Under the pieces are notes generated by a model that worked only from the letters and a program-made list of their open reading frames with translations, made no database searches and was not told where the DNA came from. Below, one piece after another: positions 14,652 through 63,028 of a stretch of 64,000 bases of DNA. Position 1 is the first letter of the stretch. Every line of letters starts with the position of its first letter. Made by a program: the position numbers and the translations under genes. Source of the stretch: Bacteroidota bacterium (lineage in GTDB: Bacteria > Bacteroidota > Bacteroidia > UBA8524); the NCBI GenBank assembly GCA_006226545.1, contig SBGR01000025.1:62001-126000 (forward strand), read 5' to 3'.

Positions 14652-16835
14652 ATGAAGAGAATACTGCTTGTCCTAGCTGTGTTGATGCCTGTTCTTGGCA
14701 TTGCCGCTGAAGGAGATACCGTCAAAGTTCGTTCTCACGATCGTGTCCACCTTAACTGGAACGGCAACTTTGATCGCAAGGCCTATTTCCCTACCCAAGG
14801 GAAATCATTCAACAAAGTTCTAATGCACTACACGCTGGGCTGTCCGGATAAAGGATGCTCAGAATGGGATTATACTACCCAAGTTTTCTTTAGAAGACCC
14901 ACCGGTAGAATGGACTCAACGCAAAGGCTTTCGCCAAATTTCAAAATTGGAAACAATACACCTGATTCCTTCTTGTACAACCTGGATTCTACCTATTCCT
15001 ACTTTTACAATGCAGGAACCATGGCTTTAGACTCCATGGCGAATCTACCGGTTCAGCTGATTCGTTTTCTGGATGCCCAAAACCCAACTGCCGCTACCGA
15101 TACCCTTACGGTTTGGGATGCGCTTATCTACCGCCCGGTTTATGATATGAATGGTGTTCAGACCGATTCCAGTCAAATCGCATTCGATCATATCATTCAC
15201 AAGCAGCAGTATACGTGGTATCAAGTTTTTGAGGTTATTGAAAACCTGGAATTGGGACGGGTTATCACGCCTTATGCGAACGGGAAAACAAAAGAATGGA
15301 CCCATACCTATACGTTTGATGTTACCGATTTTGCCTTCCTATTGCAAGACAGTGTAGATATCCGTGCACGTTACAGCGGATACCAAGATGGATTTACCAT
15401 CACCCTTGATTTTGAATTGATTGAAGGCACCCCTTCGCTCGAATGCTATAAAATTGTATCGCTCTGGCAAGGAAGTTTCCCATACGGAAATGCCAATAAC
15501 CCAATTGAAAACTACCTGAAAAATGTGCGCGTTGCACCGGAGTCTATCGCTAAAGAAGCAAAGCTACGTGTGATTCAGACAGGACATGGTTTTGGTGGCA
15601 ATGAAAACTGTGCAGAATTCTGTGCTAAATCGCATTACCTCAAGGTAAACGGACAACAGAAGGGGAGTGCTTTGTTATGGCGCGACGACTGCGGCATGAA
15701 TGCCATTTACCCTCAACCGGGAACTTGGTTATACGATAGAGCCAACTGGTGTCCGGGAAGTGCGGTTAATCCAAACGATTACTTCATTGGTGCTCACCTT
15801 TCAGCTACGGATAGCTCGGATGTTGACCTCGATATGCAGCCATTTACCAATGTGAGCAATAACAACTGCTCTTATATCGTGAGCGGCATGTTGTTCTACT
15901 ACAAAGAGATTACTTACAAAAAAGAGTTAAGCATTGAAGAGATCATGGCGCCGAACAAAGATTCGCGCTATGTGCGCTATAACCCAACCTGTGGAGATCC
16001 GTATATCCGCATTCAGAACAACGGCTCAGACACCATCCACAGCGTGGAGTTTAAATACGGCATCTTTGGCGGCAACGAACGTACTTGGCTATGGACAGGA
16101 ACCGTGGCACCTTATAGCTCAAAGTCTATTTACCTAGCGAACTTCGATTGGACGGGTGCTTCAAGCGGCTTATTCTACGTGGAAGCTACCAAGGTAGACG
16201 GACAAGCCGATGAATTGGCTATCAATAACCGAAATGCTTCTACGTTTGATTTGGTGCCTCAAATGCCGAATGAATTCCAAGTTTGGTTCAGAACCAACCT
16301 TCAGCCGGATGACAATACCGTTCATATCTTAGATGCCTCAGGTAAGGAGTTGTGGAAACGCAGCTATACCCAAGCCAGCACCAATCACTTTGATACCATT
16401 CGTTTGGTGAGCGGCTGTTATGCTTTTGAGATTGTCGACGAGAGTAAAAACGGCATCAAGTTCTGGGCTAACTCAGCCGGAACCGGTAGCTTAACTTTAA
16501 GAGCGATGGCCGGTAGCATATTGAAAGTGGTGGATGGCGACTTCGGAACAGCCTACCGTTATTATTTCACGGCTGGTTATCCATTGTCTAATCAGTTGCC
16601 GGAAGCCCAATTCCAATTGTACCCAAATCCGGGTAATAAATTGGTTTCAGTTAACCACAGCGGTGATACCTATGCCATCCGAGTGGTGGACGTGCAGGGT
16701 CGTGTGGTTTGGAATGGCGAAAGCACCGGCACTGAGACTCGATTGAATACGGAAGCCTGGACTTCGGGCGTCTACTTTGTGGAACTGAGCAATAGCGAAA
16801 GCAAAGGCATTCAGAAACTGGTGATTCAACACTAA
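14652..16835 (+). CDS. Secreted PNGase F-like protein with type A T9SS sorting domain
   Basis: A 727-residue exported protein of the peptide-N-glycosidase F family, which releases N-glycans from glycoproteins. A signal peptide (ending GIAA) precedes the two beta-sandwich domains. Family blocks as I recall them from PNGase F are clear: GCPDKGCSEWDY with Asp73 at the place of Asp60, NCAEFCAKSHYLKVN with Glu322 at the place of Glu206, and YDRANWCPGSAV. The third catalytic acid (Glu118) is not matched; the aligned region reads IRARYSGYQDG. A further domain follows, and the C-terminus (QFQLYPNPGNKLVSVNHSG) is a type A sorting domain. Its stop overlaps that of the opposing Smr gene. Confidence 0.85.
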   Translation: MKRILLVLAVLMPVLGIAAEGDTVKVRSHDRVHLNWNGNFDRKAYFPTQGKSFNKVLMHYTLGCPDKGCSEWDYTTQVFFRRPTGRMDSTQRLSPNFKIGNNTPDSFLYNLDSTYSYFYNAGTMALDSMANLPVQLIRFLDAQNPTAATDTLTVWDALIYRPVYDMNGVQTDSSQIAFDHIIHKQQYTWYQVFEVIENLELGRVITPYANGKTKEWTHTYTFDVTDFAFLLQDSVDIRARYSGYQDGFTITLDFELIEGTPSLECYKIVSLWQGSFPYGNANNPIENYLKNVRVAPESIAKEAKLRVIQTGHGFGGNENCAEFCAKSHYLKVNGQQKGSALLWRDDCGMNAIYPQPGTWLYDRANWCPGSAVNPNDYFIGAHLSATDSSDVDLDMQPFTNVSNNNCSYIVSGMLFYYKEITYKKELSIEEIMAPNKDSRYVRYNPTCGDPYIRIQNNGSDTIHSVEFKYGIFGGNERTWLWTGTVAPYSSKSIYLANFDWTGASSGLFYVEATKVDGQADELAINNRNASTFDLVPQMPNEFQVWFRTNLQPDDNTVHILDASGKELWKRSYTQASTNHFDTIRLVSGCYAFEIVDESKNGIKFWANSAGTGSLTLRAMAGSILKVVDGDFGTAYRYYFTAGYPLSNQLPEAQFQLYPNPGNKLVSVNHSGDTYAIRVVDVQGRVVWNGESTGTETRLNTEAWTSGVYFVELSNSESKGIQKLVIQH

Positions 16836-57369: not shown

Positions 57370-58581
57370 ATGAATATTCACGAGTACCAGGCGAAAGCCA
57401 TCTTGAATAAATACGGTGTTGCAATCCAGAATGGTATTGTAGCTACTACACCGGAAGAAGCCGTTGAAGCGGCCAAACAAATGCATGCCTCTTCAGGTCA
57501 GAGCTGGGTTGTGGTAAAATCACAAATCCATGCTGGCGGACGTGGAAAAGGTAATATCGTTGGGACTGAGCAAAGAGGTGTGGCCTTGGCTAAGAACCTG
57601 GATGCAGTGAAAGAAATCTCTACCAATATCTTGGGTAATGTTTTGGTTACCATCCAGACTGGTGAGAAAGGTAAAAAAGTAAGTAAGGTTCTCGTTGCTG
57701 AAGACGTTTACTACCCAGGTGCTTCTGAGCCTAAAGAATACTATATGTCGGTTTTGTTGGATCGTCAGACCAGCCAAAACGTAATCATCTACACTACCGA
57801 AGGTGGTATGGATATCGAAGAAGTGGCTGAGCATACGCCAGAAAAAATCCACAAAGAATGGATCGACCCACTTACCGGACTTACCGGATTCCAAGCTCGT
57901 AAAATCGCTTATAACCTTGGTTTGAGCGGACAAGCAAACAAAGAGATGGTGAAATTCGTAACAGCGCTTTACAAAGCCTACGAAGAAACTGACTCAGCCA
58001 TGTTCGAAATCAACCCGGTATTGAAAACTTCCGATGATAAAATCTTGGCAGTTGATGCTAAAGTTGACATCGACGATAACGCATTGTACCGTCACGCTGA
58101 CCTTGCAGAATTGCGCGATGAGTCTGAAGAAGATCCTACCGAAGTAGAAGCAAAGAAATCTAACCTTAACTACGTGAAACTTGATGGTAACGTAGGTTGT
58201 ATGGTGAACGGTGCTGGTTTAGCGATGGCTACCATGGACATCATCAAGTTGAGCGGCGGCGAGCCGGCTAACTTCTTGGACGTGGGAGGTACTGCAAACG
58301 CACAAACAGTAGAAGCAGGTTTCCGTATCATCTTGTCAGACCCTAACGTAAAAGCCATTTTGGTTAACGTATTCGGTGGTATCGTTCGTTGCGACCGTGT
58401 TGCACAAGGTATCGTAGACGCTTACAATAATATCGGAAATATTCCGGTGCCTATCATCGTTCGTTTGCAAGGAACCAATGCAGAAGAAGGCAAGAAACTG
58501 ATTGACGATTCAGGATTGAAAGTTTTCTCTGCTATTCAATTAAAAGAAGCAGCTGACTTAGTGAAACAAGTATTGAGCTAA
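57370..58581 (+). CDS. sucC: Succinate-CoA ligase (ADP-forming) beta subunit
   Basis: A TCA-cycle enzyme subunit of 403 residues. It has the ATP-grasp N-terminal part (MNIHEYQAKAILNKYGVAIQ, VKSQIHAGGRGKGNIVG), and the CoA-ligase part with NFLDVGGTANAQTVEAGF and LVNVFGGIVRCDRVAQGI. Codon use is smooth, as in strongly expressed genes. The alpha subunit sucD is not next to it in this window; a terminator follows. Confidence 0.95.
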   Translation: MNIHEYQAKAILNKYGVAIQNGIVATTPEEAVEAAKQMHASSGQSWVVVKSQIHAGGRGKGNIVGTEQRGVALAKNLDAVKEISTNILGNVLVTIQTGEKGKKVSKVLVAEDVYYPGASEPKEYYMSVLLDRQTSQNVIIYTTEGGMDIEEVAEHTPEKIHKEWIDPLTGLTGFQARKIAYNLGLSGQANKEMVKFVTALYKAYEETDSAMFEINPVLKTSDDKILAVDAKVDIDDNALYRHADLAELRDESEEDPTEVEAKKSNLNYVKLDGNVGCMVNGAGLAMATMDIIKLSGGEPANFLDVGGTANAQTVEAGFRIILSDPNVKAILVNVFGGIVRCDRVAQGIVDAYNNIGNIPVPIIVRLQGTNAEEGKKLIDDSGLKVFSAIQLKEAADLVKQVLS

Positions 58582-58797: not shown

Positions 58798-59904
58798 TTA
58801 GAATGGCGATTTCCACTTCGGGTTGGTCACCAAGGTTGAATCATTCAATAGTTTCAAGAAGGCAATTACATCTTGCTTGTCTTGAGCAGAAAGCCTAGGG
58901 ATAGGCTGTTGGTTTGCATCCATGTGCTTCACTAAATTCACATTTAAAGTGGAGCTAAACTGAAATCCATGATCGTAGTGATCCAATACTTCTTCTAAGG
59001 TTGCAAAACGGCCGTCGTGCATATAGGGTGCGGTATACGCCAGGTTTCTGAGTGATGGCGTTTTGAACTTGCCTATATCGCTAGCCTTTCCTGTTACACG
59101 AGCATAACCCGAATCTGGCGAAGCTTCCAGTCCATTATTGGCAAATTCATTTTCCCTTAAATCAATAATAAAAGGAGAGTTTAAGGTATGGCAATGCCTA
59201 CAGTCTGCACCGGTTTCGCTTAAAAATAAATTAAAGCCGCGGGCCTCAGAAGCAGTCATGTGGGCTGCCGGGTTTTGCGGGGTCTTTTGCACGTACTCAT
59301 CCCATTTCGATTGGTAACTTGTAATGCTGCGTATGAACTGAGCAATGGCAAATCGAAGCGTGGTTTCTGTTATTTCCTTATCCGGAAAGGCTTGTTTAAA
59401 TCGTGCCGGGTAGCTAGGATGGGCTTTGAGTCTTGCCACCGCTTCCGTTAGGCTGAGGTTCATCTCATGCACTGCCGTAATTGGTTCACCGGCCAGCGAT
59501 TCCAAGGTGCTTTGTCTGCCATCCCAGAAATAGCCTGAGCTCCAATTCAGGTTAAACAGCGCCATGGCGTTTTTCGTTCCAACAGCTCCTTCACTCCCCA
59601 AGCTTACCTCAAGGCCATGATCAGTGAAGCCGAAGCCCTGGTTATGACAGCTAGCGCAACTCTGGGAACTGTTTTTAGACAAGAGTGGATCATAGAATAA
59701 ATACCGACCTAACTCAACGCCTTCATTGGTCAATGGATTTTCAGCGATGAAATTGCCCAAAGGCCAATTGGATGGAACGTCCAATACATAAGTAGTGGGA
59801 CCCGGGGTACCTACAGTAGGCGGTTCGTCCGGTTTACACGATTCCAATCCGGCAATCAGACCGAAGATCAGTCCAAGGGTTAAGAGGTATTTACTATTTC
59901 TCAT
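58798..59904 (-). CDS. Di-haem cytochrome c peroxidase / MbnH-like lipoprotein
   Basis: A 368-residue di-haem protein of the BCCP/MauG superfamily. A lipoprotein signal (LIAGLESC) is followed by haem sites CASCH (Cys83, Cys86, His87) and CRHCH (Cys233, Cys236, His237). KTPSLRNLAYTAPYMHDGRF is the usual distal block. The neighbour with which it overlaps encodes an MbnP-like protein, so it is more likely an MbnH relative, which oxidises a Trp of MbnP, than a plain peroxidase. No Mbn biosynthetic gene is near. Confidence 0.82.
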   Translation of the reverse strand: MRNSKYLLTLGLIFGLIAGLESCKPDEPPTVGTPGPTTYVLDVPSNWPLGNFIAENPLTNEGVELGRYLFYDPLLSKNSSQSCASCHNQGFGFTDHGLEVSLGSEGAVGTKNAMALFNLNWSSGYFWDGRQSTLESLAGEPITAVHEMNLSLTEAVARLKAHPSYPARFKQAFPDKEITETTLRFAIAQFIRSITSYQSKWDEYVQKTPQNPAAHMTASEARGFNLFLSETGADCRHCHTLNSPFIIDLRENEFANNGLEASPDSGYARVTGKASDIGKFKTPSLRNLAYTAPYMHDGRFATLEEVLDHYDHGFQFSSTLNVNLVKHMDANQQPIPRLSAQDKQDVIAFLKLLNDSTLVTNPKWKSPF

Positions 59905-60659
59905 TCAGCAGTCCAAGCGTTTAAAAGGTTATCGCGTAGCAGCATGGTAAAAGTAGGCTCATCCATGGTATGGGATACAGCCGGTACTTCGTTTAACTTG
60001 ATCAAATTCGGATTATCAAACAATTCCATCAGCTCAAAGTTCAGGTTGATGGTGGCTTTCGTATTGGAAACGGTCAATGCCTTTGTGGTACTGATAGGCA
60101 GGCTATAGCTCATCAGGTAATTGTCGGCGCCAATATGGTAACCAAACGGCACCACCACGTCGTTGCTGTTTTTAAACTTGCCTTCGTACTTGATAAAGAT
60201 ATATCCGGTATTCCATGTCCAAAGCATGTTATAGGCTGGATCAAGGGTATTGAAATGATCGATATTGTGGTTAATGGCAGAGTCTAATCCCATGTAAAAA
60301 CGCACGCTATCGTATTGTCCGAAGGGCAGGTCTTTGAAGTTTAAGGTTTGACTGGAAGCGATATCGTATTCCACCAAAGCATATTTCTCTACTTTTTCCC
60401 AGCCTGTTTCCGGACTGTGAAACTCAAAGTTGCTCAGGTAATGACGAATCAAGTCGAGCTGCACGCTGTCGCCGGCCGGAGTAACATACTCCATGCTTTC
60501 CCAGTTCACCGCGTTGCCATTCGCTTGAAAATTAACCTTCACCTCTAGTTCACCACCGCGGGCTTCAGGGGTTGCGGTAGGCTCTTTTTCAGAACAAGCA
60601 TTGAGCATAAAAAGGCTACCAAGAGCAGCAGCAAATAAATATTTCTTCATCGTTTTCAT
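59901..60659 (-). CDS. MbnP-like lipoprotein
   Basis: A 252-residue lipoprotein (signal ending LFMLNAC). Family marks: VKVNFQANGNAVNWESM, GDSVQLDLIRHYLSNFEF, FKDLPFGQYDSVRFYMGLDS and MLWTWNTGYIFIKYEGKF. MbnP binds copper, and one Trp is turned to kynurenine by MbnH in the known pair; two Trp lie in the WTW motif here. It is the partner of the di-haem gene that follows with an ATGA overlap. A second ATG three codons in is possible. Confidence 0.8.
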   Translation of the reverse strand: MKTMKKYLFAAALGSLFMLNACSEKEPTATPEARGGELEVKVNFQANGNAVNWESMEYVTPAGDSVQLDLIRHYLSNFEFHSPETGWEKVEKYALVEYDIASSQTLNFKDLPFGQYDSVRFYMGLDSAINHNIDHFNTLDPAYNMLWTWNTGYIFIKYEGKFKNSNDVVVPFGYHIGADNYLMSYSLPISTTKALTVSNTKATINLNFELMELFDNPNLIKLNEVPAVSHTMDEPTFTMLLRDNLLNAWTAE

Positions 60660-60744
60660 GGGTAAGACCAGTTAAGTGAGTAATTCGTTGTTTCACTTAG
60701 CAAGTTATTTTTAAAAGGGCAGAATGTGAGTGACTTAGGTCACC

Positions 60745-61914
60745 CTAGGGTTTGGCTTTTCTGATCTCATCCAGAAGCTTTACTGTTCCTAGTACATTAT
60801 TGCCATTTGCCTTTCCTACTTCAATGGCTTCTTCGGCTTTCTTTTCTGCCTCGTCTAGCTTACCGGCTTTTTTCAAGAGGGCCGCATGAGTATCCAGGTA
60901 ATTGTAATCTTTGTTCTCCTTGCAAACCGCGTCAATCCATGTTAAAGCTGAAGCAAGTAAGGCTTCGTCATTTGAATTTTCATATACATCCCAAGCTTGG
61001 GTATTCCACCAATTGGCGTCGTCCATGCCTTTATCAGCAAAACGTTTGTCCAGCAGCGATTTAACTTCAGCCCATACTTCCATCTCTTTGTAAAGGTAGA
61101 GTCGGTAATAGAATCCGGATTCCGCGCCATTTTGCAAAAGCGGTAAACGCTCCTTCAGCAGTTTCTCTGCTCTATCCGGCTCTCTGCTTTTCGCTAAACG
61201 CTGAATTTGGCTACCTAAAATGGTTCCGGCAATATCATCGGTTTTGTCGCGGCCATAAAGGGAATCAAGGCTGGGCTTGGTTTCCCAAAATTGTTCGAGC
61301 CCTGCTTCATCCATCTGTCCAACAAAACGGGAGAATACGGTCCAGTTGATTTCTTGGCTTAAGTCGCTATTCATGTTGAACCAAGCTTGCACCAAGGTAT
61401 CGGTAGGAAACTTCTTTTTTCCATTGCCTTGCATCGCTAGCAAATAAAACTCAGGGTAATACAAGTTGAATTTCGGGGTATAACCCGGTCTTTTAACATG
61501 GTGATCTGGCGATACCATTTCATTTAAGGTTTTCTGAAAAACCGACACTTCTTGGTAGCCCACGGTTTGATACACCAGTTCCCCATCGCTATTAAAAACC
61601 AGGTAAGTGGGGAATGAAGTAATACCGTATTTCAAGGCTAATTGTATCCCCAAGTCTTCTTTTTCCATTTCCAGCTTGAGGTTGATGAAATGCTGGTTCA
61701 TAAAAGCACCGATACCCGAATCAGCAAAGGTCTTTTTGTCCATCACCTTGCACCAACCACACCAATCGGTATAGGCATCTAAGAAGATTAGCTTCTTCGC
61801 GGCAGCGGCTTCTTTGCGAATGCCGTCCCAATCTTGACTTTTTATAAAATTCGCTTGAGCGCCAGCATCGCTAACGGCCCAAGACATGAGAATAAACAGA
61901 AGTAGTTTACGCAT
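60745..61914 (-). CDS. Secreted thioredoxin-fold protein
   Basis: A 389-residue exported protein. After a signal peptide (WAVSDAGAQ) there is a thioredoxin domain with YTDWCGWCKVMDKKTF (Cys52, Cys55) and cis-Pro in GITSFPTYLVFNSDGEL. The C-terminal half is helical and TPR-like (LDTHAALLKKAGKLDEAEKK). It should reduce disulfides or hold folding in the periplasm. It lies 85 bases before the MbnP-like gene on the same strand and may be part of its unit. Confidence 0.85.
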   Translation of the reverse strand: MRKLLLFILMSWAVSDAGAQANFIKSQDWDGIRKEAAAAKKLIFLDAYTDWCGWCKVMDKKTFADSGIGAFMNQHFINLKLEMEKEDLGIQLALKYGITSFPTYLVFNSDGELVYQTVGYQEVSVFQKTLNEMVSPDHHVKRPGYTPKFNLYYPEFYLLAMQGNGKKKFPTDTLVQAWFNMNSDLSQEINWTVFSRFVGQMDEAGLEQFWETKPSLDSLYGRDKTDDIAGTILGSQIQRLAKSREPDRAEKLLKERLPLLQNGAESGFYYRLYLYKEMEVWAEVKSLLDKRFADKGMDDANWWNTQAWDVYENSNDEALLASALTWIDAVCKENKDYNYLDTHAALLKKAGKLDEAEKKAEEAIEVGKANGNNVLGTVKLLDEIRKAKP

Positions 61915-61999: not shown

Positions 62000-63028
62000 A
62001 TGAAAATAGACAGTCACGCACACATACTCCCAAAGACTTGGCCTAGCCTAAAAGAAAAGTACGGTTACGGTGGTTTTATTTACCTAGATCACAAAGAAGA
62101 AGGGGTAGCTGATATGATGCGCGACGACGGGAAATTCTTCCGCCGGATTGAAGAAAATTGCTGGAACCCAGAAGCGATTATCAGCGATATGGATGCCAAT
62201 GGGGTAGACATGATGACGCTCTGCACCGTTCCTGTTTTGTTCAATTACTGGGCAAAGCCGGAAGATGCCTACGACTGGGCTTGCTTCTTAAACGATCACA
62301 TTGCCGAAGTACAAAACAAATACAAATCGCGTTTTATCAGCTTGGGTACCTTGCCTATGCAAGATATCGACTTAGCCGTTAAAGAATTGGAGCGATGTAA
62401 AAACGTACTTGGCCTACGCGGCGTACAGATTGGCAGTCACATTGAAGATAAAAACCTGGATGATCCAATCTTCCACCCGTTCTACAGAGCTTGTGAAGAA
62501 TTGGATATGGCCATTTTCGTGCACCCTTGGGACATGATGGGCCAAGAGAAAATGCCGAAGTATTTCCTGCCTTGGTTGGTGGGCATGCCGGCCGAAACCT
62601 CTTTAGCAATTTGCTCCATGATTTTCGGTGGCATCTTCGATAAATTCCCGAAACTGCGTGTGATGTTCGCGCACGGTGGAGGTAGTTTTCCGTTTACAGT
62701 CGGACGAGTTTCGCACGGATGGCATTGCCGTCAGGATTTATGCGACGTGAACAAAATCCAAGATCCACGCGAGTATATCGGTCGTTTTTGGGTGGATGGC
62801 ATCACACACGACATAGACGCACTCAAGTTTTTAATTGAAACCATGGGCGCCGATAAAATCACCTACGGCACAGATTATCCTTTCCCTTTGGGCGATCTGG
62901 AGCATGGCCGATTTATTGAAGAAAGTAACCTACCGGAAGAGGTGAAAGCAAAAATCTTGCATTCCAACTTCCTCGATTTCTTAAAAATACCTCAAACCGA
63001 ATTGCAGCAATTACGCGGTTCCTTATAA
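62000..63028 (+). CDS. 2-amino-3-carboxymuconate-6-semialdehyde decarboxylase (ACMSD-like)
   Basis: A metal-dependent amidohydrolase-fold decarboxylase of 342 residues. The N-terminal metal site is KIDSHAHILPKTW with His6 and His8; MAIFVHPWDMMG, VMFAHGGGSFPFTVGRVSHG and ITYGTDYPFPLGDLEHGRF carry the rest, with the catalytic Asp in TDYPFP. It takes the kynurenine-pathway intermediate away from quinolinate to picolinate or further breakdown. Other genes of that route are not in the window. A related decarboxylase activity such as that on 2,3-dihydroxybenzoate cannot be excluded. Confidence 0.85.
   Translation: MKIDSHAHILPKTWPSLKEKYGYGGFIYLDHKEEGVADMMRDDGKFFRRIEENCWNPEAIISDMDANGVDMMTLCTVPVLFNYWAKPEDAYDWACFLNDHIAEVQNKYKSRFISLGTLPMQDIDLAVKELERCKNVLGLRGVQIGSHIEDKNLDDPIFHPFYRACEELDMAIFVHPWDMMGQEKMPKYFLPWLVGMPAETSLAICSMIFGGIFDKFPKLRVMFAHGGGSFPFTVGRVSHGWHCRQDLCDVNKIQDPREYIGRFWVDGITHDIDALKFLIETMGADKITYGTDYPFPLGDLEHGRFIEESNLPEEVKAKILHSNFLDFLKIPQTELQQLRGSL

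Follow-up and report, generated by a model that had tools for sequence, protein, structure and literature searches.

An MbnP/MbnH-type gene pair in a Bacteroidota genome in which MbnB was not found, and its predicted kynurenine copper site

Can a copper site built around an oxidised tryptophan be made independently of methanobactin? This question is raised by two adjoining genes near the end of a 64,000-nucleotide stretch of DNA from a Bacteroidota bacterium (GCA_006226545.1, contig SBGR01000025.1, forward-strand positions 62,001 to 126,000; the whole stretch is referred to as the window). An initial annotation, made from the sequence alone, had read the genes as an MbnP-like lipoprotein and a di-haem partner, forming a copper-handling unit. 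The observation underlying that reading was confirmed, and its interpretation was partly supported. The pair is a two-gene unit of known kind, MbnP and MbnH, and the two probably form a dedicated enzyme-substrate pair, in which MbnH would oxidise Trp147 of MbnP to kynurenine, giving an envelope Cu(I) site without methanobactin. Family, fold, gene order, overlap, conservation of the site, co-divergence of the partners and the absence of MbnB were established directly. The two genes are:

59901..60659, minus strand: MbnP-family lipoprotein, 252 aa (PF20243 profile match and fold match to 7l6g)
58798..59904, minus strand: MbnH/MauG-type di-haem enzyme, 368 aa, with a lipoprotein-type N-terminus (PF03150, TIGR04039, 6e1c)

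The two open reading frames (ORFs) overlap by four bases (59901-59904), which read ATGA on the minus strand, as annotated, and the first contains both motifs given for it, WTWNTGYIF and SVQLDLIRHYLSNFEF. The MbnP family, on whose presence the annotation depended, was found by profile search (Pfam MbnP PF20243, 113.2 bits against a cut-off of 27, E 1.8e-32). The partner matched CCP_MauG (PF03150, 181 bits) and carries the CXXCH motifs CASCH and CRHCH, in line with the di-haem cytochrome c peroxidase (CCP)/MauG type assigned to it. With the NCBI profiles, MbnP scored 34.1 bits against the cut-off of 140 for the equivalog TIGR04052 (MbnP), a shortfall that denies the narrow equivalog, not membership of the Pfam family. 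The enzyme scored 248 bits (E 1e-73) with TIGR04039, “MbnH family di-heme enzyme”, against a curated cut-off of 363; with TIGR03791 (MauG; cut-off 444) it scored lower, at 181 bits. Judged by these profile scores, both proteins are clear family members that lie outside NCBI’s named core. Since both fall below the strict equivalog cut-offs, NCBI’s automated naming would probably pass them over; Pfam names the MbnP. The proposed independence from methanobactin was borne out for MbnB, which was not found in the genome (TIGR04159 and PF05114; genome 94.4% complete; the search did not extend to MbnA and MbnC). Among 60 relatives, none had an MbnB match over the cut-off, and four had weak matches.

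A plain phmmer search of solved structures with the window MbnP found no MbnP, and a profile search reached 7l6g, the MbnP of Methylosinus trichosporium, weakly (E 0.011), so a fold match was needed for the identity of the protein. An AlphaFold2 model of the window MbnP, one of the structure predictions that the annotation had called for, was built from an alignment of 45 MbnPs (mean model confidence, pLDDT, 91.4). Foldseek against the PDB returned 7l6g with an E value of 2.7e-7, the top six rows being its six chains, and VIA-align ranked 7l6g first (Z 17.4, root-mean-square deviation 3.2 Å over 204 residues), with the next entry at Z 6.5. The modelled protein has the MbnP fold, at 17% identity to the M. 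trichosporium OB3b protein over the structural alignment. In the profile alignment, WTW corresponds to WNW of 7l6g, Met145 to the Met of GMAW and His175 to the His of HVGS; Met145, Trp147, Trp149 and His175 are all present. The positions of interest are listed below, with counts from a first set of 102 aligned MbnPs, taken from matches in relatives that were fetched with flanks:

60219..60221, minus strand: Trp147 codon, predicted site of the kynurenine; leading Trp of WxW (pairs with that of WNW, 7l6g)
60213..60215, minus strand: Trp149 codon, second Trp of WxW (Trp in 80/102)
60225..60227, minus strand: Met145 codon, predicted Cu(I) ligand (Met in 83/102; Met of GMAW, 7l6g)
60135..60137, minus strand: His175 codon, predicted Cu(I) ligand (His in 88/102; His of HVGS, 7l6g)
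60594..60596, minus strand: Cys22 codon, where MbnP is predicted to be lipidated (78/102 have Cys in this column)

According to a 2021 PNAS paper, the first Trp of the WxW motif in MbnP is reportedly converted to kynurenine, and the Cu(I) site is said to consist of a His, a Met and a solvent ligand, with the kynurenine nearby. Met145 and His175 stand at the places of the Met and His ligands. By homology, copper binding and a kynurenine are predicted for the window MbnP.

Trp147 was found in 101 of the 102 MbnPs, and the remaining one is truncated. When the proteins were sorted by neighbouring genes (three at contig ends stand outside the classes), the 77 with an MbnH within 1.2 kb had Trp147 in every case and His175 in 73; Met, Trp and His occurred together in 63. 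Five MbnPs have a small CX4CH cytochrome instead of MbnH; these retain Trp147 (5/5) and have lost His175 (0/5). The retention of His175 beside MbnH and its loss beside the small cytochrome support the enzyme-substrate pair. Among 17 MbnPs with neither partner and at least 1.5 kb of downstream sequence, Trp147 was present in all and His175 in 14. Loss of MbnH was accordingly rejected as the cause of site loss, consistent loss of His175 being confined to the small-cytochrome group. A second set, of 41 pairs, had Trp147 in 39 and His175 in 41.

The small-cytochrome loci (L126, L130, L131, L135 and L137) have a lipoprotein-like CX4CH protein directly after MbnP, and in four of the five, the cytochrome follows a Cys-motif protein and a barrel-like protein. 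A separate MbnP branch (L088, L090, L100, L105, L111, L112, L114, L119, L122, L125 and L134) has a WPxxMGGGYHF-like sequence rather than WxWxxGY; the second Trp is lost, and His175 and a paired MbnH are kept. A profile of this branch matched in 96 of 395 genomes of the phylum, though it also hit other MbnPs.

The residues of the enzyme were compared among 75 paired enzymes, defined as di-haem enzymes at most 150 bp from an MbnP:

59644..59658, minus strand: haem motif 1, CASCH, residues 83-87 (75/75 paired enzymes)
59188..59202, minus strand: haem motif 2, CRHCH, residues 235-239 (74/75, the remaining one gapped)
59524..59526, minus strand: Trp127 codon, FWDGR (Trp in 59/75)
58975..58977, minus strand: Tyr310 codon, where classical CCPs have a Met ligand (Tyr in 68/75)

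The best solved relative of the window enzyme was 6e1c (E 1.1e-51), titled “Di-heme enzyme”, which we take to be MbnH of M. trichosporium OB3b, and Trp127 is presumably the inter-haem relay Trp. MauG, which matures tryptophan tryptophylquinone, is likewise a di-haem enzyme acting on a partner’s Trp. Its sixth ligand is Tyr294, and its chains align from 11-294 to residues 63-310 of the window enzyme, which shares a Tyr at the sixth-ligand place; however, MauG differs in substrate, product and sequence (see the TIGR03791 score above). The two haem motifs, together with a MauG-type Tyr310 in most paired enzymes, support the enzyme-substrate pair. The CCP_MauG family includes peroxidases, and after 6e1c the best-matching solved structures are the classical CCPs 1iqc and 4aao (4e-37), which would suit an ordinary H2O2-removing cytochrome c peroxidase beside an unrelated or docking lipoprotein, with no Trp modified. 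This is improbable, as 6e1c is the best relative by far, the genes are strictly paired, the partners co-diverge (see below) and position 310 is usually Tyr, not Met. This Tyr is also found in unpaired CCP_MauG proteins of the same genome, and it is therefore not diagnostic alone.

Lipoprotein signals had been annotated in both partners, and each has a lipobox-like Cys after a hydrophobic stretch (LNAC-SEKE in MbnP, LESC-KPDE in MbnH), which suggests that both are lipid-anchored. As a lipobox, LESC is unusual; a Cys lies in a similar setting in the three closest orthologues of each partner.

MbnH lies directly downstream of MbnP in 73 pairs, and the genes overlap in 41 of these, by four bases in 14. 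The tree distances of the two partners were correlated across the 73 pairs (0.659), a value reached by none of 2000 free shuffles. When partners were swapped among paralogues within genomes (39 genomes, of which 22 have at least two pairs), the correlation averaged 0.298, with a maximum of 0.469, and again none of 2000 swaps reached 0.659. The correlation says that mbnP and mbnH have remained joined as one unit; biochemical partner specificity would agree with it and is not proved by it. None of the 73 pairs lacked both Trp149 of MbnP and Trp127 of MbnH (Fisher 0.03), nor did any of the 41 pairs of the second set (pooled, 0/114, Fisher 0.006). A rule that one of these two Trp residues is always kept was rejected as evidence and retained as a lead, with P 0.16 in a tree simulation of independent losses (3 and 5 parsimony changes).

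We infer the reaction, copper binding and physiological role from the characterised relatives. Both proteins would be exported and lipid-anchored. An oxidant, probably H2O2, would bring the di-haem MbnH to a high-valent, bis-Fe(IV)-like state, and the enzyme would take electrons, at a distance, from Trp147 of the folded MbnP, yielding kynurenine. The kynurenine would complete a mononuclear Cu(I) site with Met145 and His175. With no methanobactin involved, the mature MbnP would then keep copper at the cell envelope, whether to deliver, store or scavenge it. The families and fold, the conservation of the residues, the gene pairing and the co-divergence of the partners all support this reading.

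Several observations weigh against it. Trp147 may be conserved for structural reasons, because it is invariant in the MbnPs without an adjacent MbnH and in those with the small cytochrome. The co-divergence could stem from inheritance of mbnP and mbnH as a single block. Of the 77 MbnH-paired MbnPs, 14 are missing the Met or the His. Two MbnH-paired MbnPs of the second set (L172 and L174) have Phe at the place of Trp147, and judging from these sequences, the enzyme there must have some other action, or none, at the kynurenine position. No recognisable copper gene was seen beside the window operon, and direct evidence for copper or for kynurenine was found in no Bacteroidota member. Together with the 11 of 77 paired MbnPs in which Met145 is missing, the Phe substitutions would fit an MbnH that oxidises MbnP to a product other than a copper site (another metal site, a redox relay or a cross-link), the Bacteroidota branch having left copper. 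The same is suggested by the distance of the window MbnP from the characterised protein (34 of 140 bits) and by its cysteines, as the 7l6g record takes its name from a four-Cys motif, whereas the sole Cys of the window MbnP is Cys22, of lipidation type. A non-copper product is nevertheless unlikely: Met145, Trp147 and His175 are all in the window MbnP and in most paired ones, and some other MbnP units lie near SCO1/SenC and YHYH genes (Pfam-confirmed, one example each). Neighbour clusters presumably also include Cu-ATPase, multicopper oxidase, ECF sigma, Spy-like and Crp/Fnr (cluster 9) genes.

The genome has three MbnP genes, each followed by a di-haem gene: the window pair, L012 and L013. 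The L012 pair, on contig C68, adjoins a barrel-like protein (starting CDICGCG) and a small Cys-motif protein. The L013 MbnP, on C74, carries a sorting domain of the type IX kind (PF18962 at 36.7 bits against a cut-off of 27) and is followed by two di-haem genes. In its model (pLDDT 86.6), residues 20-232 match 7l6g (Z 15.4), and residues 246-318 match cargo domains of the type IX secretion system (T9SS; 8glk, Z 11.5). Among the 16 longest MbnPs, 14 matched this sorting domain with an E value no higher than 0.01. The T9SS-tailed MbnP would be a secreted version of the system. Two di-haem genes also follow the long T9SS-type MbnPs of L098, L101, L104, L106, L109, L121 and L124, as they do L013:9639-12689.

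MbnP was found in 43 of the 60 relatives, and 77 of 296 genomes taken from across the phylum had a PF20243 match above the cut-off; MbnP/MbnH pairs are common in this phylum. Tentatively, Bacteroidota may possess several parallel, partner-specific kynurenine-maturation systems per cell, each MbnH maturing only its own MbnP, with the products placed as lipoproteins (the window pair and L012) or carried as type IX cargo to the surface or outside (L013). The two further pairs might also suggest that the window pair is a degenerate paralogue beside two working ones, with no distinct role. This is most improbable: its frames and site residues are intact, and orthologues with 50-55% identity occur in three of four same-family genomes, in which the site residues, gene order and upstream palindrome are kept. 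Genomes with three pairs permit a direct test of enzyme-substrate specificity within one cell.

The window pair is not new in kind, because published accounts of such pairs away from methanobactin operons go back to 2013; PMC3621798 describes conservation far beyond methanobactin producers. MbnPH-like genes have been placed in other copper operons since 2022 (PMC9426467). With these pairs (TIGR04052/TIGR04039, GenProp0940), the window pair shares both families and independence from methanobactin genes; it differs in lying under the NCBI cut-offs, in the several pairs per genome and in the T9SS-tailed versions. M. trichosporium OB3b MbnP and MbnH (7l6g and 6e1c) share with it the fold, the WxW, the Met and His positions and an adjacent di-haem partner, whereas in the window both partners look lipid-anchored, MbnP has no Cys besides Cys22 and the genome has no MbnB. 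According to PMC3912023, CorA, another copper protein with a Trp-derived kynurenine, binds one Cu(I), which supports the enzyme-substrate pair. The same paper indicates that MopE/SACCP and CorA/CorB of methanotrophs share with the window pair a di-haem partner gene, a Trp-derived kynurenine near Cu(I) and a surface location, and that MopE/CorA have two His ligands, whereas Met and His are expected in the window MbnP. A literature search with partial coverage found no paper on T9SS-tailed or Bacteroidota MbnP. The protein-derived kynurenine copper cofactor is so far known from a few methanotrophs; if Bacteroidota make such sites as widely as the genes suggest, this would be a common envelope copper chemistry. 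What makes the finding worthwhile is the organisation into several pairs per genome across the phylum, together with the secreted version and with predictions at the level of single residues for a branch that lacks the Cys motif.

Two features lie upstream of the pair:

60745..61914, minus strand: secreted thioredoxin-fold protein (WCGWCK), upstream and co-directional (PF03190, PF13098 and PF13899 over cut-off)
60730..60743, no strand: palindrome GTGACTTAGGTCAC, candidate regulator site between the thioredoxin stop and mbnP (GTGA-N6-TCAC conserved)

The thioredoxin-fold protein had been annotated as preceding the pair, and it does. The order of pair, thioredoxin-fold gene, amidohydrolase and a cluster-17 gene (window ORF 57370-58581, presumably succinyl-CoA synthetase beta) is kept in L072, L073 and L078; as only these three of four same-family genomes show the synteny, the thioredoxin-fold protein does not belong to the system in general.

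In the window, GTGA-N6-TCAC lies 71 bp upstream of mbnP; in L072, L073 and L078 the distances are 94, 60 and 94 bp, and L088 and L134 have similar half-sites at 54 and 30 bp. The shape of the palindrome resembles Crp/Fnr sites. In the window, GTGANNTANNTCAC has one exact match, the mbnP palindrome itself, and three matches with at most one mismatch, against 1.14 expected. A genome-wide regulon was rejected, since the three exact GGTGANNTANNTCAC sites in the genome equal the backward-control count. The second exact site (L150) precedes a gene that we read as a persulfide dioxygenase-rhodanese, and no Crp/Fnr gene was seen among the ORFs around it.

Near MbnP, 24 ORFs in 22 of 98 loci encode a small protein whose motif resembles CENKxxPxxxCxGKCxLxK; one example, L099:7252-7629, had no Pfam or NCBIfam match, and a metal-binding role would be a guess. 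Elsewhere in the window, the protein encoded at 14652-16835 combines a peptide-N-glycosidase F C-terminal domain with a tail for type IX sorting.
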